From a virus: DNA of 39,769 nucleotides. The stretch spans positions 1 through 39,769 of IMG/VR virus record IMGVR_UViG_3300032011_000034. The stretch is one strand, 5' to 3'. Below, one piece after another: positions 8,403-29,788 of the stretch (within the stretch, counting starts at the first letter, position 1; every line of letters starts with the position of its first letter). A program made the position numbers and the translations under genes. Below the pieces are notes generated by a model. It worked only from the letters and a program-made list of their open reading frames with translations, was not told the DNA's origin and ran no database searches.

Positions 8403-9803
8403 ATGAGTGATAAAAAGAAAAAACCTCTGATACTTCTATTATCAGATGATTTAAGATTACATAGTGGTATCGCCACAATGTCAAAGGAGATGGTTCTCCA
8501 TACAGCACATAAATATGATTGGTTACAAGTTGGAGCAGCGGTGAAACATCCTGATGAGGGTAAGTTTTTCGATGTATCTGATGATGTAAATGTAGAGAGA
8601 GGTATCTCTGATGCATCAGTTAGAATCATACCATCAAGTGGTTATGGTAATCCTGATTTAATTAGACAGATTCTAATTAATGAGCCTGTGGATGCAATCC
8701 TACACTTTACAGACCCACGTTTTTGGGGTTGGTTATATAATATGGAAGATGAGATTCGTAAACACGTTCCAATTATGTATCTAAACATATGGGATGATTT
8801 ACCAGACCCAATGTGGAACGCTCCGTTCTATGGAAGTTGTGATTTACTTATGAGTATTTCAAAACAAACATACGGTATTAATCGTAGGGTTATGAAAAAG
8901 TATGGTGAACATTATGAAGATTGGCAAATGAAATACATACCACATGGAGTATCTGAAAAGTTCAAACCAATTAAACATCTTCCTGATGGTAAAGAATTAG
9001 TTGAAGAAATGAGACGTAAGTTAGATATTCCTGAAAATAAAGATTTTATCGCTCTATGGAATAATCGTAACATTAGAAGAAAAAGTCCTGGTGATTTAAT
9101 CTTAGCTTATAAAGAGTTTTGTGATGGACTACCAAAAGAACAATCAGATAATTGTTTATTGTTATTACATACACAAGTATCAGATGAAAATGGAACAAAT
9201 CTTTTAGAAGTAATTGAAAATATTTGTCCTGATTATGATGTAATGTTTACCAATTCTCAGTTTAGTACAGATGATTTAAATGTATTATATAATATGTGTG
9301 ATGTTAATCTTAATATTGCATCTAATGAAGGGTTTGGATTGGCAAGTTGTGAATCTGTAAATGCAGGAACACCAATCATTGTTAACGTTACAGGTGGGTT
9401 ACAAGACCAATGTAACTTTACTATCGATGGTAAGTACATTACTGAAGATGATTATGTTGAATTAGGTTCACTACATGATAAAAAGAGATTACCACAAAAT
9501 TTAAGTTGGGGTAGTTGGGTAATCCCTGTATGGCCATCAAATCGTTCCCTACAAGGCTCACCACCGACACCATATATCTTTGATGACAGATGTTCGTATG
9601 AAGATGTTGCAAAAGCACTTAGACAATGGTATGATACCAAAACAGATAGACGAGTAGAATGTGGATTGGAAGGTTCAGAGTGGATGAAATCAAAGGAAGC
9701 TGGTATGAGTGCTAAGAATATGGGTGAGAGATATATTGAGGCAATCGATACTACATTTAAAAATTGGAAACCTAAAACAGAATTAGTATTATGGAAAGTA
9801 TAA
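8403..9803 (+). CDS. GT-B glycosyltransferase (GT4-like)
   Basis: A 466-residue retaining-type GT-B enzyme that would transfer a sugar from a nucleotide-sugar donor. The C-terminal donor-binding domain has the classic E-x7-E type region SNEGFGLASCE at residues 307-317, followed by AGTPIIVNVTGGLQD. The N-terminal acceptor domain contains ILHFTDPRFWGW and YLNIWDDLP. It opens a run of overlapping carbohydrate genes. There is no signal peptide or membrane segment, so it acts in the cytoplasm. Donor and acceptor cannot be read from the sequence. Confidence 0.9.
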   Translation: MSDKKKKPLILLLSDDLRLHSGIATMSKEMVLHTAHKYDWLQVGAAVKHPDEGKFFDVSDDVNVERGISDASVRIIPSSGYGNPDLIRQILINEPVDAILHFTDPRFWGWLYNMEDEIRKHVPIMYLNIWDDLPDPMWNAPFYGSCDLLMSISKQTYGINRRVMKKYGEHYEDWQMKYIPHGVSEKFKPIKHLPDGKELVEEMRRKLDIPENKDFIALWNNRNIRRKSPGDLILAYKEFCDGLPKEQSDNCLLLLHTQVSDENGTNLLEVIENICPDYDVMFTNSQFSTDDLNVLYNMCDVNLNIASNEGFGLASCESVNAGTPIIVNVTGGLQDQCNFTIDGKYITEDDYVELGSLHDKKRLPQNLSWGSWVIPVWPSNRSLQGSPPTPYIFDDRCSYEDVAKALRQWYDTKTDRRVECGLEGSEWMKSKEAGMSAKNMGERYIEAIDTTFKNWKPKTELVLWKV

Positions 9804-11122
9804 AAAAAGTATGTGTAATTAGTTGTCCTATATCTACAAGAAGTGGATATGGTTCAAGAAGTAGAGATTTCGTAAGAGCTCTAATAAAAGTAAGACCTGA
9901 TTGGGATATTAAAATCTTATCTCAGAGATGGGGTAATACACCAATGGATGCACTTAAAGTAGGTAAGGATGATGATTTATTAAACAGAATCTATATACCA
10001 GAACAGAAACCATCAAAACCAAATGTTTGGATTCAGATTACAGTTCCTAATGAATTTCAACCTGTAGGTGATTATAATATAGGTGTAACTGCAGGTGTTG
10101 AAACAACTGTAATGCCAGCTCATTGTTTAGAGGGTATTAATCGTATGGATAAAGTATTAGTTTCATCTAACTTTTCAAAACAATGTGCTGAAAATACAGT
10201 CTTTGATAAAAAAGATGAAAAAAGTGGAAAGACACTTGGAACTTTAAAATGTGAAAAACAAATTGATGTATTATTCGAAGGATATGATACTAAGATTTAT
10301 GATAACAAAGCACCATCTGAACCAAGAATAAATGATACATTATCTAAGATTGATGAATCATTTTGTTTCTTATTTGTAGGACATTGGTTGAAGGGTGATT
10401 TTGAACATGATAGAAAAAACATTAGTGGATTGATTTGGACATTCTTACAAGCATTTACTAACAAAAAGAACGCACCAGCTCTAATTCTAAAGACAAGTAG
10501 TGGTGGAACATCTTTACCTGATAGACATCGTATCCGAAGAATAATTAAAGATATGAGAAGTAAATTACCAGGTAGATTACCAAACGTTTATTTACTACAT
10601 TCTGATTTAACAGATAAAGAAGTAAATGCATTATACAATCACCCAAAGGTAAAAGCTCACGTTTCATTTACGAGAGGTGAAGGATTTGGTAGACCTTTAT
10701 TAGAGGCAACTATTAGTGGTAAACCGATGGTAGTATCAGCATGGAGTGGACATATGGATTTCTTAAATCCTGAATATATTTCTTGTATTACAGGTAAAAT
10801 GGATAAAGTACATAAATCAGCCGCTGATAAATTTTTGTTGAGAGATTCTGAGTGGTTTACAATTGATTACTCAATTGCAGGTGGTACTATGAAAGATATT
10901 CATAAAAACTATAAAAAGTATTTAGAAAAATCAAGAAAACATAGACAATACACAAAAGAAAGATTTACATTTGATAAAATGGCTGAAGTGTTAGATATTC
11001 ATCTAAAAGATGTAGATAGTAAACCTCAAACGGTTGGATTATCATTACCAAAATTAAAAAAAGTTGAAAAGAAAGTAGAAACACCAAAGGTTAATTTACC
11101 AAAATTAAAAAAGGTTAAATAG
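9791..11122 (+). CDS. GT-B glycosyltransferase with lysine-rich tail
   Basis: A 443-residue GT4-like glycosyltransferase overlapping the previous gene by 13 bases. The donor-binding signature FTRGEGFGRPLLEA is at residues 293-306, followed by GKPMVVSAWSGHMDFL. The N-terminus (VCVISCPISTRSGYGSRSRDF) has a small-residue loop typical of the acceptor domain. The last 30 residues repeat a LPKLKKV motif twice, a basic extension that could bind DNA, RNA or a membrane and is unusual for this family. Pairing with the upstream GT-B gene suggests sequential sugar additions. Confidence 0.9.
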   Translation: MESIKKVCVISCPISTRSGYGSRSRDFVRALIKVRPDWDIKILSQRWGNTPMDALKVGKDDDLLNRIYIPEQKPSKPNVWIQITVPNEFQPVGDYNIGVTAGVETTVMPAHCLEGINRMDKVLVSSNFSKQCAENTVFDKKDEKSGKTLGTLKCEKQIDVLFEGYDTKIYDNKAPSEPRINDTLSKIDESFCFLFVGHWLKGDFEHDRKNISGLIWTFLQAFTNKKNAPALILKTSSGGTSLPDRHRIRRIIKDMRSKLPGRLPNVYLLHSDLTDKEVNALYNHPKVKAHVSFTRGEGFGRPLLEATISGKPMVVSAWSGHMDFLNPEYISCITGKMDKVHKSAADKFLLRDSEWFTIDYSIAGGTMKDIHKNYKKYLEKSRKHRQYTKERFTFDKMAEVLDIHLKDVDSKPQTVGLSLPKLKKVEKKVETPKVNLPKLKKVK

Positions 11123-11634
11123 TGGCAGGATTTTACAATACCCATCTAAGAAAAACATCAGACCCTACTCCAATTAGTAAAACTAAGATGGAGAGGGGTA
11201 TGGTGGTTAAGATAAAGTATCAAAAGAGAGATAAATCTACAGGACTATATTTAGTATTCGTTCTTCAACCAAAGTGGCCTAATACAACAGAAGGTAAACT
11301 ACATGGGTTATCATTAGATGCAATACCACCTAACAAAATAAAAGAAATATCTGAAATTTATGATGAGGTTGTATCTCAATCATCTAAAGTTAAAAAGTTA
11401 GATTTAGCTAAGATTCAAATCAATGAGGGTTCTAAAGTATTCTACACATCAGAAATCAAAACTGAAAAACAATTAAGAGCAGGTTATAGAACATTCAATC
11501 TATTAGATATTAAATCTATTCAAGCAGTTAACTATGATTGGGGTAAATTTGATAAGATAGCAGATAGAGATGCGAGAAGAAAACAAATAGAAGAAGAAGC
11601 TAGACAAAGGAGAGATGCTGCACAAAATAAATAA
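11122..11634 (+). CDS. Unknown protein, SH3-like beta core plus charged coiled tail
   Basis: A 170-residue protein starting with GTG that overlaps the stop codon of the previous gene by one base. Residues about 25-70 form probable beta strands (GMVVKIKYQKRD, LYLVFVLQPKW, KLHGLSLDAI), a pattern reminiscent of small structural or DNA-binding proteins of T4-like phages. The C-terminal 25 residues are a charged helix (DARRKQIEEEARQRRD). It has no sugar-enzyme features although it sits within the glycosyltransferase operon. I cannot assign a function. Confidence 0.75.
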   Translation: MAGFYNTHLRKTSDPTPISKTKMERGMVVKIKYQKRDKSTGLYLVFVLQPKWPNTTEGKLHGLSLDAIPPNKIKEISEIYDEVVSQSSKVKKLDLAKIQINEGSKVFYTSEIKTEKQLRAGYRTFNLLDIKSIQAVNYDWGKFDKIADRDARRKQIEEEARQRRDAAQNK

Positions 11635-11637
11635 ATT

Positions 11638-12264
11638 ATGAAAATAAGTTACGCAATTACAGTATGTAATGAGTTTGTAGAAATACAAAACCTCATACCA
11701 TTTCTTTTGAAACACAAAAGACACGAAGATGAAATCGTAGTTCTATACGATTCTAAAAATGGTGATAAACGAATAGAAGAATTTCTAAGAGCAAAATCTA
11801 TTAATGCTGAATTCCAATGGTTCAAAGATGAGTTCGATGGGCATTTCGCTAATTGGAAAAACAAACTAAATTCTTTTTGTGGTGGTGATTGGATATTCCA
11901 AATCGATGCAGATGAGATTCCAAATGAAATATTGATAGAAAATCTACATGAGATTCTAACAAAAAATACTACAGTTGTAGATGTTGTATTAGTTCCAAGA
12001 GTAAATACAGTCGAAGGATTAACCGATGAACATATCCAAAAGTGGGGATGGAATGTAGATGAAAAAGGTTGGGTTAACTGGCCTGATTTTCAATATAGAT
12101 TATATAAGAAATCTGATGATATAAAATGGGTGAATAAAGTACATGAAGTATTAGAAGGATTCAAAACAATATCACATCTACCAATTGATGAAGATTTAGC
12201 ATTATATCATCCGAAAGAAATCAAAAGACAAGAGAAACAAAATGCTTATTACAATACTTTATGA
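11638..12264 (+). CDS. GT-A glycosyltransferase (GT2-like)
   Basis: A 208-residue GT-A enzyme. The N-terminal strand-loop SYAITVCNE is typical of family 2, and the metal-binding DxD region is DADE at residues 90-93 within IFQIDADEIP. A WPDFQYRLYKK stretch and a final HPKEIKRQEKQ segment match the acceptor side of this subfamily. It would invert a sugar from a nucleotide donor. It lies 3 bases after the preceding gene and shares the ATGA-type overlap with the next. Confidence 0.85.
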   Translation: MKISYAITVCNEFVEIQNLIPFLLKHKRHEDEIVVLYDSKNGDKRIEEFLRAKSINAEFQWFKDEFDGHFANWKNKLNSFCGGDWIFQIDADEIPNEILIENLHEILTKNTTVVDVVLVPRVNTVEGLTDEHIQKWGWNVDEKGWVNWPDFQYRLYKKSDDIKWVNKVHEVLEGFKTISHLPIDEDLALYHPKEIKRQEKQNAYYNTL

Positions 12265-14000
12265 TGAAAATAGGTATTATAGGAAAAGGTTACTTCGGTA
12301 AAAAAATACATAATACATTAGATGGTAAGTATGATATTAGGTTTTTTACTGGTAGGGATATGGATATCACTTATGAAATCGAATGGGTTGTTATCGCAAC
12401 ATCAGTAGATTCACACTATGAATTATGTAAAGAGTTTATAAGAAATGGTGTTAATGTATTCGTTGAAAAGCCAATGACATTATCTTGGTCTGAATCAAAA
12501 GAGTTATTTGATTTAGCTGATAAGTACGAAGTAAAAGTTTATGTTGATGATGTATTCACATATACTGAAACCTTCAGACGATTAAGGACACAGAATTTAG
12601 ATTACAATCCATTATACTTTGATTGGAAAAAGTATGGTTCATTTGGTGATACTATTTTTAATGCCCTAACATATCACGACATCTATATGGCCTTATCATT
12701 AGGTTATAATTTAGATGGTGAAATTGATTTTGAACATAACAGAGTAAACCAAAAATCATTTAGAATTGGTAATGTACATTTTAGATATGATAGAACTAAT
12801 CCTAAAAAACAAAAAACTCTTACTGTAAATAATAAAACATATGATTTTAGAACAAATCTAAATCCATTAGATTCTATGTTTTATAATGTATTTAATGGTA
12901 ATGTAAACTTTACTAAAAATAATCGTTTAGCTTTAGAATCACAAAAAGTATTAGATGATTTAAATTTTAGAAAACCAAAAGTAGCCGTAGTTGGTGCTGG
13001 TATATTTGGTATTACATCAGCTCTTAAATTAAGTGAAAATTTAAATGTTGTTTTATTTGAAAAAAATGATGATATATTACAAAATGCTAGTTCTATAAAT
13101 CAATACAGATTACATAGAGGATATCACTATCCAAGAAGTATAGAAACTGCATTAACCTCAAAGGAAGGGACAAACACATTTACGGATGTATTTAATGAAT
13201 GTGAGATGAAAGATACAAAGCAATTCTATGCAATAGCATCTATGGGTTCTAAGGTATCACCTGATGAGTATATAAATTTTATGGATAAATGTGATTTACA
13301 CTACAGAGTAGTTGAAAATGATTTAGTTACATCAAATGTTGCGGAACTATATGAGGTTTTTGAGGGATTGTTTGACCCTTGTAAACTATATAATTCCTGT
13401 AAAAAATATTTAGATAATTCGGAAGTAGATTTAAGATTAGGAACTCCATACAACGATGATTGGAATTATGATTATGTTATAAATTGTACATATTCAAATT
13501 TAAATGAAGTGTTTAATGGAGATGAAATATATCAGTTTGAAGTATGTGAAAAACCAGTAGTAAAATTACCAACTAAATACAAAGGTAAAGGTATTGTTGT
13601 GATGGATGGGCCATTTACTTGTATAGACCCATACTCAGATACAGATTACCATGTTGTTGGTAATGTTGTACATGCAATACATTCAACAAATGTTGGTAAA
13701 TATCCTGAAGTTGATGATAACATAAAACCATTTTTAAACAAAGGATTAATAAAGAATCCAACAATAACAAAATTTCCATTGTTCAAAGAATCACTAAAAC
13801 ATTTCTTTGGAATTAATGAGGTAGAACATATTGGTTCAATGTACACTATAAGAACTGTACTTGCAAACAGAGATTTTGATGATGCCAGACCTTCGATTGT
13901 AAAAAAAGAATCGATAGGTAAATATTCAGTATTTTCAGGTAAAATATCAACAGCCGTTGATACTGCTAATGAGTTAAATCAATATATAATGAAACAATAA
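12261..14000 (+). CDS. Fusion: Gfo/Idh/MocA oxidoreductase plus FAD-dependent oxidoreductase
   Basis: A 579-residue two-enzyme fusion. Residues 1-230 are a Gfo/Idh/MocA-type NAD(P)-binding dehydrogenase: dinucleotide loop GKGYFG at 8-13, VVIATSVDSHYE at 43-54 and the signature FVEKPM at 67-72. Residues from 241 begin a second Rossmann fold, VAVVGAGIFGITSALKLSE, with a FEKNDDILQNASS segment, typical of DAO-type FAD oxidoreductases that oxidise amino or hydroxy carbons. The Gfo C-terminal half looks short. In this operon it may make a keto or amino sugar together with the aminotransferase at 19881. The linkage in one reading frame is direct; cooperation on one substrate is inference. Confidence 0.85.
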   Translation: MMKIGIIGKGYFGKKIHNTLDGKYDIRFFTGRDMDITYEIEWVVIATSVDSHYELCKEFIRNGVNVFVEKPMTLSWSESKELFDLADKYEVKVYVDDVFTYTETFRRLRTQNLDYNPLYFDWKKYGSFGDTIFNALTYHDIYMALSLGYNLDGEIDFEHNRVNQKSFRIGNVHFRYDRTNPKKQKTLTVNNKTYDFRTNLNPLDSMFYNVFNGNVNFTKNNRLALESQKVLDDLNFRKPKVAVVGAGIFGITSALKLSENLNVVLFEKNDDILQNASSINQYRLHRGYHYPRSIETALTSKEGTNTFTDVFNECEMKDTKQFYAIASMGSKVSPDEYINFMDKCDLHYRVVENDLVTSNVAELYEVFEGLFDPCKLYNSCKKYLDNSEVDLRLGTPYNDDWNYDYVINCTYSNLNEVFNGDEIYQFEVCEKPVVKLPTKYKGKGIVVMDGPFTCIDPYSDTDYHVVGNVVHAIHSTNVGKYPEVDDNIKPFLNKGLIKNPTITKFPLFKESLKHFFGINEVEHIGSMYTIRTVLANRDFDDARPSIVKKESIGKYSVFSGKISTAVDTANELNQYIMKQ

Positions 14001-14001
14001 T

Positions 14002-15426
14002 ATGATATTTTATAGAACAGTAGATAACGAATTACATAATGCAGCTGTAGTTCCAAATGTAGGTTTTTCACTAGATGATGCATCATACATACCTGATGAA
14101 TATTTAGGAAAAGAAAACTTTGTAATCCTAAGAACTTGTTTTGGGTTGGGTGATTGGGGAATCGTATCAGCATTTCCAAAGAAGTTAAAAGAGAAATATC
14201 CTGATTGTAAGGTATGGATTCCGTCACCAAAGTTACTAAAACATTTATTTGGTCACTTAGAAAGCAATTGGAGCTCGTGGGATGACCCGTTTAAAGTAGT
14301 TCATACGATATTTGATAATAATCCTTATGTTGATGGGTTCATTGATGAATTCGTAGGTGAAGTATTCAATGACCACTATAAATTGTATGAACATCCAAGA
14401 GAAGATGTGCCTTTATTAGAACAGATTCTAAAGTTTTGGCAGTTTGATAACTTTGATGGTATTGAGCCTGAAATTTATTGGAGTGATTCGGAAAAAGAAT
14501 TAGGTGATAAAATTATCAAAGAACATACAGATGGTAACTTTGGTACATTACTAATAGCAAACAGATATAAAAACGATTCAGTTGATTTGATACAAAACAA
14601 ATTAGATGAATATGATTTACCTATGTTCTATTGGACTTCTGAAAAAGATAGTGGGTTTAAATTTAAAAAAGCTTTGGATTTAAGACACATTGATATTAGA
14701 GTACAGATGTATATAAAATCTAAAGCTAAATTTAATGTAGGAAATCAATGTGGTGTTAATGATACTATATCAAACTATGCACCTACATTTAGTGTTCCAA
14801 AGAATCAACTAAAATCTAATATAGTTAAATCACAAAACTATATGTACAAAGAGGTTACAAAAGTATTAAATGATTTACCTGATAAATGGGAAGTTAAAAC
14901 AACAACATCCAAAAAGTGGAAAGAGGCGTTGTATAATTTTATTAAGTATCACAATATTAAATCAGTTTTAGAGATAGGAACATCATTAGGACATACTACA
15001 TATTTTGTGGCTCATTTTGTTGATAAAGTAACAACTTTAGAGTATAATTTACCCAGAGTAATTGCAGCTAAAAAGTTATCTGAGAAACACAATAACATAA
15101 ATTTTATACATGGTAATGCATATAATCTGTGGAATTTTGATTACCACGATTTAGTAATAATTGATTGTATCCACGATTATAATCATATCAAAAAAGATAT
15201 TGAAAATGCAATAAACTTAGGCACTAAATATATTGCATTCGATGATTATGGTTTATTTCCTGAATTGAAAAAGGCAATAGATGAATCAATAAATTCAGGT
15301 AGAATAGAATTAGTAAGTAAAATAGGATACCCAGCAGGTACACATTTTTATATGTCGAAATCAACTAACGCTACATCTGATAAAGTATTGGCAGATAGTG
15401 AAGGTTTAATTTGTAGAGTATTATGA
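14002..15426 (+). CDS. Fusion: GT-B (GT9-like) glycosyltransferase plus SAM methyltransferase
   Basis: A 474-residue two-domain protein. Residues about 30-285 resemble a heptosyltransferase-like GT-B fold (FVILRTCFGLGDWGIVSAFP, later NVGNQCGVNDTISNYAP as the donor-site glycine loop). Residues 315-465 are a class I methyltransferase: SAM loop VLEIGTSLGHTT at 322-333, acidic strand-end near TLEYN, and LVIIDCIHDYNHIKKDI, as in the Methyltransf_24 group. It would add a sugar and methylate it, capping a glycan. It follows the oxidoreductase fusion by one base and overlaps the next gene by 4 bases. Which acceptor is used is unknown. Confidence 0.75.
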   Translation: MIFYRTVDNELHNAAVVPNVGFSLDDASYIPDEYLGKENFVILRTCFGLGDWGIVSAFPKKLKEKYPDCKVWIPSPKLLKHLFGHLESNWSSWDDPFKVVHTIFDNNPYVDGFIDEFVGEVFNDHYKLYEHPREDVPLLEQILKFWQFDNFDGIEPEIYWSDSEKELGDKIIKEHTDGNFGTLLIANRYKNDSVDLIQNKLDEYDLPMFYWTSEKDSGFKFKKALDLRHIDIRVQMYIKSKAKFNVGNQCGVNDTISNYAPTFSVPKNQLKSNIVKSQNYMYKEVTKVLNDLPDKWEVKTTTSKKWKEALYNFIKYHNIKSVLEIGTSLGHTTYFVAHFVDKVTTLEYNLPRVIAAKKLSEKHNNINFIHGNAYNLWNFDYHDLVIIDCIHDYNHIKKDIENAINLGTKYIAFDDYGLFPELKKAIDESINSGRIELVSKIGYPAGTHFYMSKSTNATSDKVLADSEGLICRVL

Positions 15427-16121
15427 GAATAGCAGTTTATACATCAATATTTGGTGGATATGATAATATCATAGATGACCAATTAAAAATGGATGGAGTT
15501 GATTACATTTGTTATACAGATGCTGATATAAAATCCGATATATGGGAAGTTAGGAAATCAACACCACTTTATACAGACCCTAATCGTAATGCAAAAAAGT
15601 ACAAAGTATTACCACATAGATATTTGAGTGAGTACGATTGGAGTGTATGGATTGATGGTAACATAAAAATCCATTCAGATATCAGACCACTATGTAGTGG
15701 TGAGCCATATAAGTTATATGACCATATGAAAGTATTTGATGCGAGAGATTGTATCTATGATGAAGCTGAAACTATTCTTAACTTTGGTAAAATTAACTCT
15801 GAAAGAAATCCACATAAAGGAATTAAAAATTGGAAAGATAACCCATCTCTTATTATGAAACAGATGGAACGATATCAGATGGAAGGGTATCCTACAAAAA
15901 ACGGATTGGCCACAACACCTATAATGGTTAGAAATCACAACCACTTAGATACCATCAAACACAACGAAGATTGGTGGAGTGAAATCAAACATAATTCAAA
16001 AAGAGACCAGTTAAGTTTTAACTATATTGCTTGGAAAAATCAATTTAATTTTGTATATTTGGAAGGTGATTCACGAAATAATGATTATTTTGTGAGTATG
16101 GGTAAACACATAGGAAAATAG
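15423..16121 (+). CDS. Glycosyltransferase-like protein (DUF616/TOD1-MUCI70 type)
   Basis: A 232-residue protein starting with RIAVYTSIFGGYDN and containing YICYTDAD and YDWSVWIDGNIKI (W76, D78), the pattern of the DUF616 glycosyltransferase-like family. The conserved RNAKKYKVLPHRYL segment between these fits that family, where it precedes the acidic metal site. It starts at an ATGA overlap. Donor and acceptor are unknown. Confidence 0.75.
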   Translation: MRIAVYTSIFGGYDNIIDDQLKMDGVDYICYTDADIKSDIWEVRKSTPLYTDPNRNAKKYKVLPHRYLSEYDWSVWIDGNIKIHSDIRPLCSGEPYKLYDHMKVFDARDCIYDEAETILNFGKINSERNPHKGIKNWKDNPSLIMKQMERYQMEGYPTKNGLATTPIMVRNHNHLDTIKHNEDWWSEIKHNSKRDQLSFNYIAWKNQFNFVYLEGDSRNNDYFVSMGKHIGK

Positions 16122-16123
16122 TT

Positions 16124-17551
16124 ATGGTATATTCACCGATAAATTTAGATTACTTTTTGAATATGGAAATCGCCAATGGTGGTATCAGTAAACAAATCGT
16201 AACATTAAATGGTAAACTAAAAACAATTAGAGATTTAGTTACATATTGGAAGGATGCACCTACACCTGAGTTAACATCTGAAACTTGGCAATACTATAAC
16301 TGTATGATTGCAGGATTTAGAAAAGGTGTAGAAAATCATCACAATATCGGATGGGATAATCTTACAAAAGAATATTATGATTCATTAGAACCAATGGATG
16401 ATGATGAGTTATCAGAATACTTAGAAAATAATCCTGTAGAGTTTAGTAACGGTTTTATAAAACATAGTTACCATCGAGCACTTGCTATGGTTGGTAGATT
16501 AATTAGAGGTGAGAGATACATTCCATTTTATATGGAAACATCTCAGATTTATGATTCACCTCGAAAGTTAGATGGTATAATGAGAACATCTAAATTAACA
16601 TCAAAAATAAAACATTTATCTAAATTAGATAAAATGGGTGTTAGTAGAGATGAATATTGTTTATGTCAGAGTTCCATCTTAACTGTTATGGGTGTTAGAG
16701 ATAATGATGATTTGGATATAATTATTTCATCTAAGTTAAGAAAACAAAATGTAAGATTTCCAAGCGGTATTGATATATTTGATGCTAATAGAAAGAAGTT
16801 TGATTATTTTGGTGCAGCTGGTGATGATGACATATTAGAAAATTATTGTATCACTATTGATGGATATAAGTTCTTAGAACCACGTTTTTACTTTGCAAGA
16901 AAGAATACACATACTGATAGAGATAAAAAAGATTGGGATGGTGTATCAAAGTTCTTTGAAAGAGAATCTGATTTAGGATATCCATTTAACTTTCAACCAT
17001 ACAAATGGGGATTACCATATTTTAGACCTCATATCAAATCAACATCATTAGATTTAGAATCACTAACATTAGTAAAAGATAAATACAATAGAATAGCGGA
17101 TGGTGTAAATCAAGGAAGAGCAGTTTATGCTGGTGATGGTTATTTTGTAAAGATATTTCATCCTGAATATTGTAGATTACAGAACTTTAGAGATGCATTA
17201 AGTAGTGGTTTCTTAAATGGATTAACACCTGCACTAACTCACATATTAGAAGATGATAACGGAAATATAAATGGTTACATTACTTTAAGTGGAGAAATGT
17301 TATCAGAAAGTGAAGTTGATTTTGAAAAGATTCCTCAATGGTTTATTAGAACTGTATTAAGAAATTGTCAAAAAAGAAATAAAGTATTTTATGATTTAGT
17401 TCCTATCAATATAATTAGAGATTCATACTTTAATCAAATCAGTTTGATTGATTTAGAAAGTGTTTACGATTTGGATAAATTAGAAGATATGAAAAAACAT
17501 AACGCAACATTAAAACCAATAAAATTATTAGAATGGATTCAATCGGTATAA
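16124..17551 (+). CDS. Composite protein: nucleotidyltransferase-like and kinase-like regions
   Basis: A 475-residue protein I cannot assign to one family. Residues about 100-155 contain a GFIKHSYHRALAMVGRLIRG stretch suggestive of a small DNA- or ligand-binding unit. Residues about 178-200 (CLCQSSILTVMGVRDNDDLD) match the start of nucleotidyltransferase folds, where the DD-x-D acidic cluster holds metal. From about 333 a kinase-like region begins (YAGDGYFVKIFHPEY, with Lys as a possible ATP contact), followed by a hinge-like ILEDDNGNINGYI, then YDLVPINII (422-431) and LIDLESV, matching the catalytic and DFG-like loops of aminoglycoside-phosphotransferase kinases, with variant residues. It could activate or phosphorylate a sugar. 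These similarities are by eye and weak. Confidence 0.5.
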   Translation: MVYSPINLDYFLNMEIANGGISKQIVTLNGKLKTIRDLVTYWKDAPTPELTSETWQYYNCMIAGFRKGVENHHNIGWDNLTKEYYDSLEPMDDDELSEYLENNPVEFSNGFIKHSYHRALAMVGRLIRGERYIPFYMETSQIYDSPRKLDGIMRTSKLTSKIKHLSKLDKMGVSRDEYCLCQSSILTVMGVRDNDDLDIIISSKLRKQNVRFPSGIDIFDANRKKFDYFGAAGDDDILENYCITIDGYKFLEPRFYFARKNTHTDRDKKDWDGVSKFFERESDLGYPFNFQPYKWGLPYFRPHIKSTSLDLESLTLVKDKYNRIADGVNQGRAVYAGDGYFVKIFHPEYCRLQNFRDALSSGFLNGLTPALTHILEDDNGNINGYITLSGEMLSESEVDFEKIPQWFIRTVLRNCQKRNKVFYDLVPINIIRDSYFNQISLIDLESVYDLDKLEDMKKHNATLKPIKLLEWIQSV

Positions 17552-18354
17552 TCGGACAGGGTTTCGTAGGAAACGCAATATATCAAAAGTTTAAAAATTA
17601 CTTTACGGTATATACATATGATTTGGATAACACAAGATGTAATTCATCATTAGAACAAGTTAGAGAATGTAAAACAATTTTCATTTGTTTACCAACTCCT
17701 ACTAATTCACAAGGTGAATGTGATACTTCTATTATAGAAAGTGTTCTTGATGATTTAGATAAAAGAAGTTATCACGATATCGTAATCAAATCAACAGTTG
17801 TACCTGGTACTACAGAAAGATTAAATAAAAAATACAAAGATTTAAGTATTGTATTTAATCCTGAGTTCTTAACTGAGGCAAATGCTGTACAAGATTTTGA
17901 GAATCAAAATAGAATTGTATTAGGTGGGCCACGTCCAACTACTACAAAGATTAAAAGAATTTACACCAAAGTATTTCCTGGTGTTCATATTATCAAAACA
18001 GGTTCTACTCATGCTGAAATGATTAAGTATGTAACAAACACATTTTTAGCTACTAAAGTATCATTCGCAAATGAAATATATCAGATATGTGAAAAGTTAG
18101 AATTAGATTACGATAAAGTGATTGAGTATTCTACATTTGATAAAAGATTAGGTAAATCACATTGGGCAGTACCAGGACCAGATGGTGATTTTGGATATGG
18201 GGGACATTGTTTTCCTAAAGATTTGAAAGCAATGATATCATTAGCACATGATTTAAATGTATCACCAAGAATACTAACAGCAGTTGATTGTAAAAACAAT
18301 GATGTTAGAACAGATAGAGATTGGGAAAAGATGAAAGGAAGAGCAGTATCATGA
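17533..18354 (+). CDS. UDP-glucose/GDP-mannose dehydrogenase family, C-terminally short
   Basis: A 273-residue NAD-dependent sugar-nucleotide dehydrogenase. The NAD loop GQGFVG is at residues 8-13, STVVPGT and FNPEFLTEA follow, and the catalytic cysteine is Cys226 in GGHCFPKD. Usual members are about 400-450 residues with a C-terminal UDP-binding domain; that domain is missing here, so the protein ends soon after the catalytic helix. Such short forms may depend on a partner or act on a different substrate. It overlaps the previous gene by 19 bases and the next by 4. It would produce a uronic acid donor for the cluster. Confidence 0.85.
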   Translation: MDSIGIIGQGFVGNAIYQKFKNYFTVYTYDLDNTRCNSSLEQVRECKTIFICLPTPTNSQGECDTSIIESVLDDLDKRSYHDIVIKSTVVPGTTERLNKKYKDLSIVFNPEFLTEANAVQDFENQNRIVLGGPRPTTTKIKRIYTKVFPGVHIIKTGSTHAEMIKYVTNTFLATKVSFANEIYQICEKLELDYDKVIEYSTFDKRLGKSHWAVPGPDGDFGYGGHCFPKDLKAMISLAHDLNVSPRILTAVDCKNNDVRTDRDWEKMKGRAVS

Positions 18355-19115
18355 AGAATGTAGTATTCATACCAAACGTTGATTTAGGTAACGGAAGAAG
18401 TACACCATATCATTACTCAGTAAAGAGTTGGAAGAAGTGGTGTGATAAGAACGATGTTATCTGTTTAGAGTGGACTGAACCAATTATGGATTCAGATACA
18501 TTCCCAATCATAATGCAACGAGAATGGGTATTTGATATTATAGAACATAATGAGATTGATTACGACCAGATTGCAATTGTAGATGCAGATACTATAGTTC
18601 ATCCTGATTGTCCCAACTTCTTTGAAGAAACTAATCACAAATATTCTGCTGTTGTAAACAATGGTTGTTATGAGTGGGTAACTCGAAGTGTAAGAGGATG
18701 GGGTGAGGCTATGTTTCCAAATGAACCATTGGTAAAACCATACGATTATTTTAACACTGGATTTGTAGTTGTAAACAAAAAACATAAACCATTCTTTGAT
18801 GAGATAAAAGATTTATATCTAAACAGAGGTGAAGAAATAAAACATTACAGAGATACCATAAAAGCAAGTACAGGTCAAACTATGGTAAACTTTATGTTAA
18901 AGAAAAATAATATAGAAGTAACCAAATTATCTGAAGGATACAATCTACAAGATTTATTTAGAAAGAATTTATTACACATACCCAATCACTCTTGGTTTAG
19001 TGATGAACTACATTTTTTAAATGCAGGTTGGGTATATCATTTTAACGCAATTCCACAAAACGATAGACACGTATCGTATTGGATGGAAAGAACATACAAA
19101 CACTTATATGAATAG
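18351..19115 (+). CDS. GT-A glycosyltransferase-like protein
   Basis: A 254-residue protein with a nucleotide-diphospho-sugar transferase layout. The DxD motif is DAD at residues 78-80 in AIVDADTIVHPD, and YFNTGFVVVNKKHKPFF further on is typical of GT8-like enzymes. The ATG at 18351 overlaps the previous stop as ATGA; the earlier in-frame ATG at 18321 adds ten residues that only overlap the dehydrogenase tail. The end of the protein overlaps the next gene by 8 bases. Confidence 0.8.
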   Translation: MKNVVFIPNVDLGNGRSTPYHYSVKSWKKWCDKNDVICLEWTEPIMDSDTFPIIMQREWVFDIIEHNEIDYDQIAIVDADTIVHPDCPNFFEETNHKYSAVVNNGCYEWVTRSVRGWGEAMFPNEPLVKPYDYFNTGFVVVNKKHKPFFDEIKDLYLNRGEEIKHYRDTIKASTGQTMVNFMLKKNNIEVTKLSEGYNLQDLFRKNLLHIPNHSWFSDELHFLNAGWVYHFNAIPQNDRHVSYWMERTYKHLYE

Positions 19116-19878
19116 AACAATACACATACTATCAGTACATTATGAAAATCCATTTTGGATTGATATACAATTAGAACAACTGAAAAAACATCTAAAAGTT
19201 CCTTATAAAACTTATATGGCTCATGCAAATATGCCTGAAGATTTAAAAGATTATAGTAACGATTTTGATGTTGTTATATCAGACCCTCGTAAAAAGTTCC
19301 ACAATACAGATGGACATAAATTATTATTACCACATATCAAAGAAAATATAAAACCTAATGATATTGTTGTAAAGTTAGATTCTGATGCATTCTTTATTAA
19401 GGATGTAGATGAATCCTTATTTGATTTAGTAGATGAGCATGGGTTTTTATCTATACACGAACCACGACATGAATTAGATTTGAATTACAAAACTCCACAT
19501 CCTGTATTTTACGCATTTAAAGGTGAGTACTTATCAGATGGATTGGATGTACAACTATGTACAATCAGAGTTGAGAACTCTAATTGGTGGGGAAGTGTTA
19601 ATGGTTGGATAAGAAGTAAAAATATTGATTGGTTTGCATTAGAAAGAAGTAATGAAACAAATTTACATCCAATATATTTTGCCATCTATGGTGATTTGAT
19701 ATACCACAATTGGGCTGGTTCGAGATTAATGAGAACGAGAGAAGATAGAAGAAGAGCGGCCAACGAAGGAATAAGTTTAGATGAGGTGATAAGACAGAAC
19801 CATCAACTAAATGAATCAGTTCTAAAGGCGTTGGATACTGATGTAGATGAATTTATAAAAGTATTAAAAACAAAGTAA
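19108..19878 (+). CDS. GT-A glycosyltransferase-like protein
   Basis: A 256-residue protein. It opens HILSVHYENPFWIDIQLEQL, and the acidic metal-binding motif DSD is at residues 91-93 in VVKLDSDAFFI. A later NWAGSRLM stretch with HNW fits a donor-site histidine region. The ATG at 19108 is within the last codons of the previous gene and begins the domain; an in-frame ATG at 19021 would add 29 residues lying over the previous gene. No membrane segment. Confidence 0.75.
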   Translation: MNRTIHILSVHYENPFWIDIQLEQLKKHLKVPYKTYMAHANMPEDLKDYSNDFDVVISDPRKKFHNTDGHKLLLPHIKENIKPNDIVVKLDSDAFFIKDVDESLFDLVDEHGFLSIHEPRHELDLNYKTPHPVFYAFKGEYLSDGLDVQLCTIRVENSNWWGSVNGWIRSKNIDWFALERSNETNLHPIYFAIYGDLIYHNWAGSRLMRTREDRRRAANEGISLDEVIRQNHQLNESVLKALDTDVDEFIKVLKTK

Positions 19879-19880
19879 AT

Positions 19881-21014
19881 ATGAAAATAAGAAAAACAAT
19901 GTTACCTGTACTAAGACCGTATGGGGGTAAAGAAGAAATAGAAGCATTAACTGAAGTTATTGAAAGTGGTTGGTGGGGTAAAGGCCCTAAAGTTGCAGAG
20001 TTCGAAAAGAAGTTTGCGGATTTAGTTGGAGCAAAATATGCAGTTGCAGTTACATCCAACTCACATGGACAAGATTTGGTTATGAAAGCTTTGGATATCA
20101 AAGATGGTGATGTAATCAATCCTACGATATCATTTATGGCAACGGCAATGATTCCATTATGGCAAGAAAACATAACTACAAATGTAGTTGATGTAGACCC
20201 ATATACAATGAATATGGATGTTGAGGATGTACGAAGAAGTATTACTCCAAATACAAAAGCAATTATTGCTGTAAATCAGGCAGGTGTACCAGCACCTATT
20301 GATGAAATCAGAGAATTTTATGATGGATTGATAATTGAAGATTGTGCTCATAGTTGTTATACTGAAGGAGCAGGACTTAAAGGTGATATTGCAATCTGGT
20401 CGTTTCAAGCAGTTAAAACAATGCCTTGTGGGGATGGTGGTATGATTACATTGGATGATGAAGAACTATACAACAAACTAAAAGAGATGACTTGGTTCGG
20501 TGTATCATCTACATATTCCAGAGTTGCAAAAGAAGATACAGTTACAGGTAAACCAGGTTACACTTGGGATTACGAAGTAGATAAGATTGGATACAAATGT
20601 TATATGATTGATATAAATGCAGCAATCTGTTTGGAACAACTTAAAAAGTTACCACAAATATTAGATTGGAGAAGGCACGTTCAAAAAAGATATAACGAAG
20701 GGCTATGTGAACACGTTGAAAGACCACCACATACTGAAACAGTACAATACTATTGCGCAAAAGTACCTTCCGAACATAGAGGTGATTTAATTGATTATCT
20801 TGCAAGTAAAAATGTACATACTTCTGTACACTTTAAACCATTACACAAATATGAGATAATTCAAAAACACTTAACTCATAAAGATAGAGAATGGCCAAAT
20901 GCAGAAAAAGAGTGGGAACGATTAATATCACTACCTGTTCATCCAGCGATGACAGAAGAAGATATTGATTATGTAATCTATTGGGTAAATCAATACTTTA
21001 AAGAAAATGGGTAA
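19881..21014 (+). CDS. DegT/DnrJ/EryC1/StrS sugar aminotransferase
   Basis: A 377-residue PLP-dependent enzyme that transaminates nucleotide-linked keto sugars. It opens LPVLRPYGGKEEIEAL and contains the substrate loop SGWWGKGPKVAEFEKKF. IIEDCAHSCY places the PLP-contacting Asp and His, and the catalytic lysine is Lys179 in SFQAVKTMPCGDGGM. Length is normal for the family. In the operon it would convert a keto sugar, possibly made by the dehydrogenase or the oxidoreductase fusion, into an amino sugar. It overlaps the next gene by 8 bases. Confidence 0.95.
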   Translation: MKIRKTMLPVLRPYGGKEEIEALTEVIESGWWGKGPKVAEFEKKFADLVGAKYAVAVTSNSHGQDLVMKALDIKDGDVINPTISFMATAMIPLWQENITTNVVDVDPYTMNMDVEDVRRSITPNTKAIIAVNQAGVPAPIDEIREFYDGLIIEDCAHSCYTEGAGLKGDIAIWSFQAVKTMPCGDGGMITLDDEELYNKLKEMTWFGVSSTYSRVAKEDTVTGKPGYTWDYEVDKIGYKCYMIDINAAICLEQLKKLPQILDWRRHVQKRYNEGLCEHVERPPHTETVQYYCAKVPSEHRGDLIDYLASKNVHTSVHFKPLHKYEIIQKHLTHKDREWPNAEKEWERLISLPVHPAMTEEDIDYVIYWVNQYFKENG

Positions 21015-21723
21015 TCTAATATTAGGATATGGTTTATTAGGTAAAGAGATGGTAAAACAGACCGGCTGGGACTACAAATGTAGAAAAAACGGATTTGATT
21101 TACTAACATCTAACTTAGAGGATGAGATAATCAACTACATTGATTTACCACATGAAGGTAGAGTTGGATATTCAACACCACCTGTAATAGTGAATTGTGT
21201 TGGTAATACCGATACATACTCATCTGATAAGAAATCTCATTGGGATGTAAATTATGTTGGAGTATCTAAATTGGTAGATTTCTGTAATAAATATAATATA
21301 AAATTAGTTCACATATCAACTGATTATGTATATGCTAATTCTAAGAATGGTAGAAGTGAAGAAGATATACCTGTTCATAATGAGGATTGGTATTCATATA
21401 CAAAATTATTAGCAGATGGTTATATAGAACTAAAATCAAAAAATTATCTAATAATCAGACCAGGTCATAAACCTAATCCGTTTCCCTATGATAAAGCTTG
21501 GGTTAATCAGTTAGGTAATTTTGATTATGTTGAAACTATTTGTAAACAAATGGTAGATTTGATTGATGAGGATATGAGTGGTGTTTATAATATAGGAACT
21601 GAGATGAAATCAATGTATGATTTGGCTGTAAAAACTAAACCAAATGTTAAAGAAGCATTTAAACCAAATCACATACCAACCGATGTTACTATGGATATTT
21701 CAAAATTTAGGAAAATAAAATGA
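21007..21723 (+). CDS. RmlD-like NAD(P)-dependent sugar reductase/epimerase (extended SDR)
   Basis: A 238-residue extended short-chain dehydrogenase. The nucleotide loop is GYGLLGKE at residues 7-14, VNCVGNTDT at 62-70 follows the Asn-Ala-type strand, STDYVY is at 104-109 and the YxxxK catalytic pair is Tyr129/Lys133. This is the layout of dTDP-4-dehydrorhamnose reductase, although the usual GxxGxxG is reduced to GYGLLG and the protein is shorter than typical RmlD (about 290). It would reduce a 4-keto sugar nucleotide. Confidence 0.85.
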   Translation: MGNLILGYGLLGKEMVKQTGWDYKCRKNGFDLLTSNLEDEIINYIDLPHEGRVGYSTPPVIVNCVGNTDTYSSDKKSHWDVNYVGVSKLVDFCNKYNIKLVHISTDYVYANSKNGRSEEDIPVHNEDWYSYTKLLADGYIELKSKNYLIIRPGHKPNPFPYDKAWVNQLGNFDYVETICKQMVDLIDEDMSGVYNIGTEMKSMYDLAVKTKPNVKEAFKPNHIPTDVTMDISKFRKIK

Positions 21724-22631
21724 AGATAGCATTTTTTACAGAGATGGAGTTTAAAGGAAAGATTGATAAGAATCATCCTAATATGAGAACTGAATTTGCA
21801 TGGATGTGTTCATTAGATGCAACACATATGAATCTAATGTATCATAGCACTGAAAAATTTGATTTAGGAATTGCTATAACTCCGAAAAATAATCCAACTG
21901 CGGTAAACATTGAACATTTAAAAACAATGTGTGATAAGGTGGGTGTAATGCAAGAGGGCCCATTTTGGTTGTTCCAAGATTATGATTTAGAAAAACAAAT
22001 ACATTATTATAATAATCTAATAGAATCTGATATAATCTTTACTCATAATGAGCAAGACAGAAAATACTATAAAGGATTAACAAATCACAAAGATGTAAGA
22101 GTACTACCATCTCTAATGATTTCAGAAGCAGTTGGTGAGTTACCAACTGAAGATAGAAGTGGTATTATGATTGGTGGTAATATGGTTAGTTGGTATGGTG
22201 GGTTTGATTCATTTATGTTAGCTAACTCAGTTACAGATGAAATCTATCAACCAAAGATGGGTAGAGCTCTACCTAACGAACAACAATTGGGTATCAACCA
22301 ATTACCATATCTACAATGGAATGATTGGGTAAAAGAATTAAACAAACGTAAGATGGGAATTCATATGATGAGAACTCATGCCGCTGGTACATTTGCACTT
22401 AATTGTTCATATGTAGGTATTCCTTGTGTTGGATATGAAGAATTAGATACTCAAAGATTACTTCACCCACATCTATCAGTAGAAAATGGTGATTTAGAAA
22501 AAGCAAGAGAATTAGTAAAAAAGTTGTGGAATGATTTGGATTTTTACAAAGAAAATTGTATATTAACACAACAACTATATAAAGAAAAGTATAGTGAAAA
22601 TAAATTTAAAGAAAGATTAAAGTTATGCTAA
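21720..22631 (+). CDS. Glycosyltransferase-like protein (GT-B)
   Basis: A 303-residue cytoplasmic protein that begins MKIAFFTEMEFKGK, like a GT-B N-terminal strand. The C-terminal half has LPYLQWNDWVKELNKRKMG followed by HAAGTFALNCSYVGIPCVGY, a region that corresponds to the donor-site turn where the G-x-P-x-V pattern is usual. No DxD motif is present. It overlaps both neighbours by 4-7 bases and is probably one more transferase of the operon, though the family cannot be fixed. Confidence 0.65.
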   Translation: MKIAFFTEMEFKGKIDKNHPNMRTEFAWMCSLDATHMNLMYHSTEKFDLGIAITPKNNPTAVNIEHLKTMCDKVGVMQEGPFWLFQDYDLEKQIHYYNNLIESDIIFTHNEQDRKYYKGLTNHKDVRVLPSLMISEAVGELPTEDRSGIMIGGNMVSWYGGFDSFMLANSVTDEIYQPKMGRALPNEQQLGINQLPYLQWNDWVKELNKRKMGIHMMRTHAAGTFALNCSYVGIPCVGYEELDTQRLLHPHLSVENGDLEKARELVKKLWNDLDFYKENCILTQQLYKEKYSENKFKERLKLC

Positions 22632-23833
22632 GTAAAAAAGATATAAGTTTCATTCAACCGAGTAGGAATAATCTAAAGTACCTAAAGTGGTCTTATGATT
22701 CTATCAGAAAGAACGGTGGGCCAGAACCAACCATATGTGTTGCCGATGATTTCAGTAACGATGGAACTTGGGAATGGTGTGAAGATATGATGGTAAAAGA
22801 CCCAAACTTCAAAGCAATCAGAAATGATGGGCCAACAAGATTAGGACATACAATTCTATATGATGAGTTAGTTGAGATAGCTGATACTCCGATTGTAGGA
22901 ATCTATCACGCAGATATGTATCTTATGCCAAAAGCATTGGATTTCGTACTAAAACATATCAAACCTATGAATGTGGTATCGTTGACAAGAATCGAACCAC
23001 CACTACATCCTGATGGGCCTGAAAAGATGTTAGTAGATTTTGGAATCGAACCTGAAGAATTCAAAGAAGAAGAATTATTAAAGTGGTTTGAAAAGGTACA
23101 GATGAATCAGGCAACTAAACAAACTGAAGGAATTTTTGCTCCCTGGTTCATCTTCAAAGAAGATTTTACATCAATCAATGGACATGACCCACTATTCGCT
23201 CCACAATCAAAAGAAGATACAGATATTTTTAACAGATTCCAATTGAACGGATATAAGTTTATTCAGACTTGGGGTGGTTGCGTATATCATATGACTTGTA
23301 GAGGTAGTAGATTTGCAGATGGGGCTGAAAGAAATCCTAACGGTGAAGTGTTTATGAAGAACAGAGAAACAAATGAATGGCTAACACAAAATATCCGTTC
23401 AACTCGTAACTTCCTTAGAAAGTGGGGACACTATTGTAAACATGATTCATTGATGAAACCAATAATTCCACCAAAGTATAATATTCAGTTTAACATAGAG
23501 AATTGCAATGAAAAATTGTTAGAGATATTAGAACCCTGGTGTGATGTAATAGTTACTGATTTAGATGAAGATATTGTACAAAAATATATTAAAAAAGAAC
23601 AGCCAGATACTCAGTTTGATTTGAGTAAAAGAATCAATGTAGATGTGGATTCTGATATAGAAGTTAGTTTTGATGCAAATAAATTATCAGAAAATTCTTA
23701 TAAATTAATAACCGAACTATCTACCATACTTGAGTCCTCTAATATTGAGGTTGGTGAGTTTGAAGTGGACATATATAGAGTGGTTGTGAATAGGGTAAAA
23801 ACATACGAACATAATTTAATTTACAGAAAGTAG
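22625..23833 (+). CDS. GT2-type glycosyltransferase with extra C-terminal domain
   Basis: A 402-residue protein. Residues 5-230 are a family 2 GT-A domain: ISFIQPSRNNLKYLKWSYDSI opening, CVADDFSNDGTWEW, and the metal site HADMY around residue 98 in place of a strict DxD. TWGGCVYHMTCRGSRF near 215-230 is the acceptor-side region. Residues from about 275 form an additional acidic domain of unknown role. It closes the carbohydrate operon; the next gene begins 16 bases later. Confidence 0.85.
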   Translation: MLSKKDISFIQPSRNNLKYLKWSYDSIRKNGGPEPTICVADDFSNDGTWEWCEDMMVKDPNFKAIRNDGPTRLGHTILYDELVEIADTPIVGIYHADMYLMPKALDFVLKHIKPMNVVSLTRIEPPLHPDGPEKMLVDFGIEPEEFKEEELLKWFEKVQMNQATKQTEGIFAPWFIFKEDFTSINGHDPLFAPQSKEDTDIFNRFQLNGYKFIQTWGGCVYHMTCRGSRFADGAERNPNGEVFMKNRETNEWLTQNIRSTRNFLRKWGHYCKHDSLMKPIIPPKYNIQFNIENCNEKLLEILEPWCDVIVTDLDEDIVQKYIKKEQPDTQFDLSKRINVDVDSDIEVSFDANKLSENSYKLITELSTILESSNIEVGEFEVDIYRVVVNRVKTYEHNLIYRK

Positions 23834-24398: not shown

Positions 24399-25280
24399 AT
24401 GTTGTTAAAAGTAGGTTCAAGAGGTAACGAAGTAAAATTGTTACAAGAATTCTTAGGAATTGGAGCAGATGGTATCTTTGGTAAAGGTACAGAGTTTGCA
24501 GTAAAAGAGTTTCAAAAATTAAACGGATTAACAGTTGATGGATTAGTAGGGCCTGGAACTTGGGATTGTATGGGATTAGCAACAACTGATGATTCAGAAA
24601 AAACATATACCACCGAAAACGGATTGGTAATCAATAGACACTTTTTACCGCCAGGTGAATATAAAAGTGGAATCACAAAAAAAGAATATTGTTTCTTACA
24701 CCATACGGCAGGATGGCAGAATCCTTACAGAACTGTAGACCATTGGGGTAGAGATAGTAGAGGTGCAGTAGCAACCGAATTCGTATTAGGTGGTCAATCA
24801 ATCAAAGGAAATGATGATAAGTACGATGGTGTTATGGTTCAAGCCTTTCCTGAAGGACATTATGGATGGCATTTAGGAAAGAATGGTTCACAACATATGC
24901 ATACACATTCTGTAGGTATCGAAGTAAATAACTTTGGATACTTAAAGAATGGTAAAACATATGCAGGAACTACGGCAGTTGAATCACAAATCGTAACATT
25001 AGATAAACCATTCAGAGGATTCAAAGAATGGCACAGATATTCAGATAAACAAATCGAAGCACTTCGTTTATGGATACTTTACATAGCAGATAGAGATGGA
25101 ATTGATGTTAGAAAAGGTTTAGTAGAGGAAATTAAGAAAAAAGGTGCAGATGGATTTGAGTTCAACGAAGATGCTTATTATGGTAGAGTAAAAGGTATGT
25201 GGACACATACAAATACTAGAAAAGATAAGTTCGATATGTTCCCACAATCTGAGCTCTTGGATATGTTAGTGAGTTTATAG
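24399..25280 (+). CDS. N-acetylmuramoyl-L-alanine amidase endolysin with peptidoglycan-binding domain
   Basis: A 293-residue endolysin. Residues 3-58 are a PG_binding_1 domain (VGSRGNEVKLLQEFLG, then DGIFGKGTEFAVKEFQ and DGLVGPGTW). Residues about 95-255 are an Amidase_2 (type 2) catalytic domain: LHHTAG with zinc-binding His101, DHWGRD, a GYH-like GWHLG, and HTHSVGIEVNNFG. It would cut the amide bond between MurNAc and the peptide. There is no signal peptide, so it needs a holin; holin-like genes lie at 30153 and 30423. A class 2 motif precedes it. Confidence 0.95.
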   Translation: MLLKVGSRGNEVKLLQEFLGIGADGIFGKGTEFAVKEFQKLNGLTVDGLVGPGTWDCMGLATTDDSEKTYTTENGLVINRHFLPPGEYKSGITKKEYCFLHHTAGWQNPYRTVDHWGRDSRGAVATEFVLGGQSIKGNDDKYDGVMVQAFPEGHYGWHLGKNGSQHMHTHSVGIEVNNFGYLKNGKTYAGTTAVESQIVTLDKPFRGFKEWHRYSDKQIEALRLWILYIADRDGIDVRKGLVEEIKKKGADGFEFNEDAYYGRVKGMWTHTNTRKDKFDMFPQSELLDMLVSL

Positions 25281-29481: not shown

Positions 29482-29491
29482 GGGTAAAAAG

Positions 29492-29776
29492 ATGGCAAAA
29501 CAAATAGGAGAAGAAACTAAAATTACATTAGATTTAAAAACGATTGCTATGATTTTAGTTGGGGTTGCAACAGTAGTAGGTATGTGGTTCGCTTTACAAG
29601 CGGATATAGAAGAAGCAAAAGAACTTCCAATAGCACCACCACCAGATGTAACTAGAATGGAATACGATATGAAAGACCAATTGATACGTCAAACAATTAT
29701 GACTACTCAAGAGGACGTTCAAGAACTTAAAGAAGATATGAAACGTATTGAAGAAAAAATAGACAAACTACGATAA
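29492..29776 (+). CDS. Membrane protein with coiled-coil tail
   Basis: A 94-residue protein with one membrane segment at about residues 17-36 (TIAMILVGVATVVGMWFALQ), a proline-rich linker (APPPDVT) and a C-terminal coiled coil (EDVQELKEDMKRIEEKIDKL). The layout resembles an inner-membrane spanin subunit or a structural accessory protein; no outer partner is certain. Lies between the barrel gene and a thioredoxin-fold gene. Confidence 0.7.
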   Translation: MAKQIGEETKITLDLKTIAMILVGVATVVGMWFALQADIEEAKELPIAPPPDVTRMEYDMKDQLIRQTIMTTQEDVQELKEDMKRIEEKIDKLR

Positions 29777-29788
29777 AAAGGGGTTCAT

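Follow-up and report, generated by a model that had tools for sequence, protein, structure and literature searches.

Organization of the carbohydrate gene block

The 39,769-base IMG/VR virus record IMGVR_UViG_3300032011_000034, referred to here in its full length as the window, carries a contiguous block of fifteen open reading frames (ORFs) for sugar supply and sugar transfer, extending from 8403 to 23833 as the first-pass annotation had placed them. All are on the + strand, and intergenic distances range from -33 to +3 nt. The block follows T4-type replication genes at the window start (family B polymerase, clamp, gp44-/gp62-type clamp loader and PD-(D/E)XK exonuclease) and precedes an endolysin and then a holin-like protein. 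Because all fifteen genes are also present on an independent contig at 99.6–100% identity, the block is not an assembly artefact. Genes are named below by their start coordinates (Table 1), two of which were re-placed from the translations: 18321 (TTG) to 18351 (ATG), and 19021 to 19108.

Pfam matches above curated cut-offs identify five glycosyltransferases (8403, 9791, 11638, 15423 and 22625) and four sugar-nucleotide-type enzymes, namely a Gfo/Idh-FAD fusion, a two-domain UDP-glucose-type dehydrogenase, a DegT aminotransferase and an RmlD-like reductase. Four further proteins are likely glycosyltransferases by motif, weak match or context only: 18351 and 19108 carry DxD motifs, 21720 has a weak BshA match, and the N-terminal half of 14002 returned no informative match and no credible solved relative in a profile search. 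The earlier count of about nine glycosyltransferases is therefore secure for five members and provisional for four. The previously proposed dehydrogenase, aminotransferase, reductase and fusions are borne out, the fusions 16124 and 14002 by a structure model and a below-cut-off match, respectively, and the gene content is consistent with an operon able to build a sugar chain.

A constant frame encloses a variable middle

Relatives were collected by searching IMG/VR with aligned sequences of the second GT4 protein (GT4-2, 9791); at least 587 stretches encode a related protein, of which the best 80 were kept. The loci share a frame in the order PD-(D/E)XK, GT4, GT4, small gene and GT2, often closed by a terminal GT-B and GT2 pair. 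Specifically, 89 of 90 loci examined have the first GT4 gene (GT4-1) immediately 5' of GT4-2, the PD-(D/E)XK gene precedes GT4-2 by at most six genes in 83 of 88, and the frame GT2 follows within four genes in 55 of 56. The small frame protein 11122 belongs to a cluster of 21 members in the collected loci and is replaced elsewhere by another small protein (cluster c8); it has no Pfam, PHROG or PDB match, and its profile yielded no credible solved relative.

The 8 kb 3' of GT4-2 hold 205 protein clusters, 109 of them confined to a single locus, a tally that takes in the frame genes located there. Transferases of the 21720 type (a cluster of 18 members) and of the 22625 type end this variable middle in the closer relatives. 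Sibling cassettes encode enzymes of different sugar pathways, of CapE/CapF type or CMP-nonulosonate type: L005 carries a CapE/CapF-type pair, L006 a UDP-GlcNAc 2-epimerase and a cytidylyltransferase with NeuB nearby, and L015 a cytidylyltransferase fusion. Among 36 related records, NeuB occurs in 6 and DegT in 17. The locus family accordingly displays the constant flanks and variable sugar-gene middle by which O-antigen and capsule loci are recognized.

A division of labour, in which the frame would modify one target (DNA or a virion protein, say) and the cassette would serve a different one, their adjacency being a matter of history, is very unlikely. Rhodothermus phage RM378 offers such an arrangement a parallel, having a clear GT4-1 homologue, a possible adjoining GT4-2 homologue and no sugar cassette annotated nearby; against it, frame and cassette are contiguous in the relatives mapped, with the sugar genes downstream of the frame transferases.

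Table 1. Features of the carbohydrate locus and its surroundings in the window
Feature	Position	Strand	Basis
PD-(D/E)XK nuclease, constant upstream neighbour of the locus	6531..7478	+	PF12705, E 1.7e-21
Frame glycosyltransferase 1 (GT4)	8403..9803	+	PF00534 above cut-off; EX7E motif
Frame glycosyltransferase 2 (GT4)	9791..11122	+	PF00534 just above cut-off; EX7E motif
Conserved frame protein, 170 residues, no carbohydrate signature	11122..11634	+	
Frame glycosyltransferase 3 (GT2)	11638..12264	+	PF00535 above cut-off
Fusion of Gfo/Idh/MocA oxidoreductase and DAO-type FAD oxidoreductase	12261..14000	+	PF01408, PF01266
Fusion of putative transferase domain and class I methyltransferase	14002..15426	+	C-terminal methyltransferase match below cut-off, E 1.8e-4
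TOD1/MUCI70-type glycosyltransferase	15423..16121	+	PF04765, E 1e-13
Fusion of nucleotidyltransferase-like and kinase-fold domains	16124..17551	+	Conserved residues, structure model
Two-domain UDP-glucose-type dehydrogenase	17533..18354	+	PF00984, PF03721; TIGR03026 above cut-off
Putative GT-A transferase	18351..19115	+	VDADT motif
Exchangeable sugar module (putative transferase, DegT, RmlD-like)	19097..21714	+	Missing in L087 and L088
Putative GT-A transferase of the exchangeable module	19108..19878	+	KLDSD motif
DegT/DnrJ/EryC1/StrS sugar aminotransferase	19881..21014	+	PF01041, E 8.8e-83
Short RmlD-like sugar reductase	21007..21723	+	PF04321, E 2.2e-13; PDB RmlD matches
Putative GT-B transferase, terminal frame in close relatives	21720..22631	+	Weak BshA-type PDB match, E 0.07
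GT2 transferase, terminal frame	22625..23833	+	PF00535, E 1.3e-11
Endolysin (peptidoglycan-binding and amidase), downstream boundary	24399..25280	+	PF01471, PF01510
T9SS-sorted protein, 998 residues	25362-28358		Signal peptide-like start, T9SS type-A sorting domain

Presence and absence of a discrete sugar module

Genes 19108–21723 of the window form a discrete module, and sugar modules enter and leave the locus as whole units delimited by gene boundaries. L087 matches the window at 83–88% DNA identity on both sides of a gap in which window positions 19097–21714 are missing, and in both L087 and L088 the genes flanking the missing module overlap at a single ATGA. The module of the window joins its downstream neighbour at the same ATGA and overlaps its upstream neighbour by 8 nt. 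Some other relatives fill this position with different genes, either a PIG-L-type deacetylase and another partner or RmlD and PIG-L together with a transferase fused to DegT.

Sequence exchange is also evident from abrupt changes in protein identity along the locus. Between L005 and the window, they amount to 29–47% in the replication and GT4 genes and reach 84% for GT2, 80% for the Gfo/Idh-FAD fusion and 72% for 16124. Between L095 and the window, DegT is 97% and 18351 is 91% identical, with most other cassette genes at 62–83%.

Enzymes and fusions of the variable middle

The Gfo/Idh-FAD fusion joins two proteins that many bacteria and archaea encode as adjacent but distinct genes. Relatives of its FAD domain occur in 25 cellular genome contigs (SAR202, Chloroflexi, Patescibacteria, DPANN archaea and others), usually with a separate Gfo/Idh gene close by and often directly adjacent; a genome scan with the full fusion as query returned no cellular relatives, and the FAD domain alone found them. 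The two domains are fused in the phage order on a Marinoscillum (Bacteroidota) genome contig, within a glycan-type gene neighbourhood, and in reverse order on one Pacearchaeota contig. The FAD half of the predicted structure is modelled too poorly for a structure search. The pairing suggests a two-step oxidoreduction of sugars that is as yet uncharacterised. The phage enzyme may have originated from a fusion such as that of Marinoscillum (L119 7344-8330), which is 37% identical to it and lies beside DegT-like, methyltransferase-like and second Gfo/Idh-like genes.

Protein 16124 has no Pfam family match. Its middle region contains an NDDLDI motif of nucleotidyltransferase-like character, invariant in 8 homologues, as are the kinase-type residues K343, D424, N429 and D443 (lysine, catalytic-loop and metal-binding positions). 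The C-terminal half is well modelled and matches protein-kinase folds, with low TM-scores for the whole model. The 14002 fusion is mostly represented in relatives by its N-terminal part alone, and 18351 yielded no credible solved relative in a profile search. Additionally, an 18351-type protein is fused to a 16124-type protein in L092/L093, and a 19108-type protein to DegT in L095, fusions that would tie the partner proteins into shared pathways.

The UDP-glucose dehydrogenase has no Pfam match to a third domain. Since relatives share this short form (271–335 residues), an assembly error is rejected as the cause of its truncation. DegT-family proteins of only 195 residues, matching parts of the family profile, are also encoded (L018 16166-16753 and L092 6950-7537), and the short DegT, UDP-glucose dehydrogenase and RmlD proteins suggest that these phages have sugar enzymes of compact form.

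Two established pathways were considered for the cassette. The WbpA, WbpB and WbpE superfamilies (UDP-glucose dehydrogenase, Gfo/Idh 3-dehydrogenase and aminotransferase) are all represented in the block, and the corresponding UDP-diamino-uronic acid pathway is weakened by the DegT protein, which is nearest to ArnB/PseC types, ranked well above WbpE, and lies in a separate module from the dehydrogenase. A route to UDP-L-Ara4N through the UDP-glucose dehydrogenase, an SDR decarboxylase and ArnB is disfavoured, the SDR protein looking RmlD-like rather than decarboxylase-like.

Phage type, host and isolate relatives

T4-type replication genes in the window and the gp23 capsid protein in related records mark a T4-like phage; gp23 is present in nine related records, including that of Microcystis phage Mel-JY01, and absent from the 39.8-kb window itself. 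The 998-residue protein encoded downstream of the block bears a type IX secretion system (T9SS) sorting domain and many GC(T/M)D..NYDP..DDGSC-type repeats, and is predicted to be a phage cargo for the host T9SS, for which Cryophage provides a precedent (PMC7468147). Such domains are also encoded in 6 of 26 related records.

Among isolates, the two GT4 proteins are best matched by Flavobacterium phage immuto (about 47–48%) and Mel-JY01 (44–50%); at the DNA level, no relative of window positions 1–24000 was found among isolate phages. A host in the Bacteroidota, probably of the marine flavobacteria type, is favoured because of the T9SS protein and domains and the isolation of immuto, which carries the same frame, on Flavobacterium; Mel-JY01, which also has the frame and is recorded from Microcystis, is a contrary datum. 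The description of this phage as a cyanophage in the first-pass annotation is thus doubtful, with Mel-JY01 speaking in its favour.

The block of vB_FspM_immuto (genus Immutovirus, MW353175, 48.0–60.0 kb) preserves the order PD-(D/E)XK, two GT4 (47–48%), small gene, GT2 (58%), DegT, sugar genes and terminal GT2 (45% identical to 22625), and 21720 shows a 25% match to the region of an annotated mannosyltransferase. The immuto block differs from the window in its DegT, which is only 23% identical, and in a pilin-glycosylation-type protein and an epimerase that replace the UDP-glucose dehydrogenase and the FAD fusion. Mel-JY01 (PP395634, 82–90 kb) shares the replication genes and the PD-(D/E)XK-GT4-GT4-GT2 frame, after which come glycosyltransferases and a methyltransferase; unlike the window, it has a recorded cyanobacterial host, a short cassette without the window's nucleotide-sugar enzymes and a GT4-1 split into two ORFs.

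More distant systems share parts of this organization. P-SSM2 and Salacisavirus carry phage-borne groups of glycosyltransferase and sugar-enzyme genes, whereas the Salacisavirus stretch read has no match to the frame genes, and a lipopolysaccharide (LPS) gene cluster was reviewed in 2010 as unique to one cyanomyovirus genome (PMC2984593). The moraphages, compared by description only, resemble the window phage in their predicted Bacteroidota hosts and a core genome with four glycosyltransferase groups; they are described as a jumbo-phage lineage, and the accessible portion of their report describes no exchangeable sugar cassette (PMC12619734). Bacterial O-antigen and capsule loci share with the phage locus constant flanks, a variable rare-sugar middle (CapE/CapF-type, nonulosonate-type) and modular exchange, and differ from it in that the phage locus has no Wzx, Wzy or PHPT gene found and is borne by lytic-type T4-like phages. 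The earlier remark that the locus is unlike ordinary O-antigen loci was therefore overstated as to organization, which is very O-antigen/capsule-like, and holds for the missing export part.

Acceptor of the glycan

The absence of a flippase or polymerase from the block, observed earlier, extends to the relatives. Families for the Wzx flippase (PF01943), Wzy/ligase (PF04932) and PHPT initiating transferase (PF02397) were not found in ten related records, nine of 139–191 kb including Mel-JY01 and one of 79 kb, whose completeness is unproven, in a search that was positive in control genomes and did not extend to PF13440, PF00953 or ABC-type export families. No membrane helices are predicted in the fifteen block proteins. 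The lack of export genes together with soluble enzymes favours assembly on a cytoplasmic acceptor, and a virion protein is likely because no gene for lipid-carrier loading, flipping or polymerising was found here or in the relatives. With roughly an even chance of being correct, the locus is read as a system by which the phage glycosylates its own virions in the cytoplasm, using sugars that can be exchanged. The virion protein would be the leading acceptor by elimination and by precedent, glycans on the capsid and tail tube of mycobacteriophages being cited in PMC12619734.

Under virion glycosylation, the constant glycosyltransferases (two GT4 and GT2 in front, often GT-B and GT2 last) would make a base oligosaccharide, and the variable middle set would produce activated rare sugars and then transfer them. 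The UDP-glucose dehydrogenase may supply a uronic-acid-type donor, the Gfo/Idh-FAD fusion an oxidised or reduced sugar, and DegT and RmlD, with their own putative transferase, an amino sugar; methyl and phospho decoration of the chain is possible. The finished chain would be attached in the cytoplasm, most likely to a virion protein. As in bacterial O-antigen loci, gain or loss of modules would alter the outer sugars and keep the attachment machinery. These predicted enzyme activities and sugar identities are deduced from sequence.

Several considerations weigh against a virion target. Any acceptor, the virion included, is a prediction from gene content, and evidence for four of the nine transferases is weak. 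Solubility is also seen in many O-antigen and other bacterial transferases. A lipid carrier and flippase could come from the host, and export genes could lie among the families outside the search or in missing parts of the related records.

The main rival, of fairly low probability, is remodelling of the host surface, in which the enzymes, relying on the initiating transferase and flippase of the infected cell, would extend or replace its lipid-linked glycans (LPS, capsule or Bacteroidota O-glycans) and thereby block superinfection or grazing. Such a role has been put forward for the 24 LPS genes of cyanophage P-SSM2 (PMC2984593), and the window DegT is 64% identical to that of a Salacisavirus record, where it adjoins RmlA/RmlB/RmlC-like genes. 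The occurrence of the Gfo/Idh-FAD fusion in a Bacteroidota glycan-type neighbourhood and the exported proteins encoded in the window are in line with this role, which is opposed by the failure to find initiating transferase, flippase, polymerase and ligase families in the ten related records and by the short time that a fast lytic cycle would presumably leave for rebuilding a surface.

Glycosylation of DNA is unlikely. Here the chain would be placed on hydroxymethylated phage bases as protection against restriction, and modification-dependent nucleases would select for diverse sugars. The transferases adjoin replication genes, phage glycosyltransferases hypermodify DNA with diverse glycans (Pyle 2024, as cited in PMC12619734), and one relative encodes a divergent thymidylate synthase (TS)-like protein whose best PDB match is CMP 5-hydroxymethylase. 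The frame, however, is present in all records, whereas TS-family genes occur in only 4 of 10 and the hydroxymethylase-like protein in 1 of 16, which makes DNA less likely as a general target. In L098 2206-5238 (genome of L088), the TS-like protein adjoins asparagine synthetase-like and threonine dehydratase-like genes, possibly a base-modification group in that single relative.

Among virion, DNA and host surface, the targets first proposed, the evidence leans toward a cytoplasmic acceptor, all three keeping some probability, and the earlier caution about the target is justified. A broader proposal, tentative and somewhat less probable than virion glycosylation itself, is that the T4-like phages infecting aquatic Bacteroidota possess a viral counterpart of the O-antigen locus. 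In it, a constant glycosyltransferase frame would anchor exchangeable rare-sugar modules that confer a distinct sugar "serotype" on each virion and are traded among phages and with host glycan loci. Carbohydrate genes of aquatic phages are usually listed singly as LPS genes, and here they form a defined, recurring locus. Its presence in many environmental contigs and in a Flavobacterium isolate makes the target of the phage sugar genes directly testable. Should the glycan reside on virions, it would represent an antigen-like variation of the phage surface that would affect adsorption, receptor decoys and persistence.

Regulatory signals and neighbouring genes

T4 late promoters (TATAAATA) are absent within and just before the cassette, and their count is no higher than chance; expression timing therefore cannot be inferred from them. 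Scans for sigma-70 promoters and terminators gave no excess over shuffles, and tRNA and Rfam scans gave no match.

Two long ORFs lie directly 5' of the locus, 7475-8008, with a weak match to SLT transglycosylase, and 7839-8369; they share 170 nt in the same orientation, and each has homologues in relatives. Beyond the T9SS-sorted protein, signal peptide- or lipoprotein-like starts recur in window regions 28360-30115 and 36571-37326, in proteins of 373 residues, 108 residues (thioredoxin-like) and 251 residues; with several such starts, the phage seems to export several proteins to the host envelope. A 745-residue protein at 34052-36289 combines a weak Zeta-toxin-type kinase match with a strong match to phrog_5268, a PHROG of unknown function.

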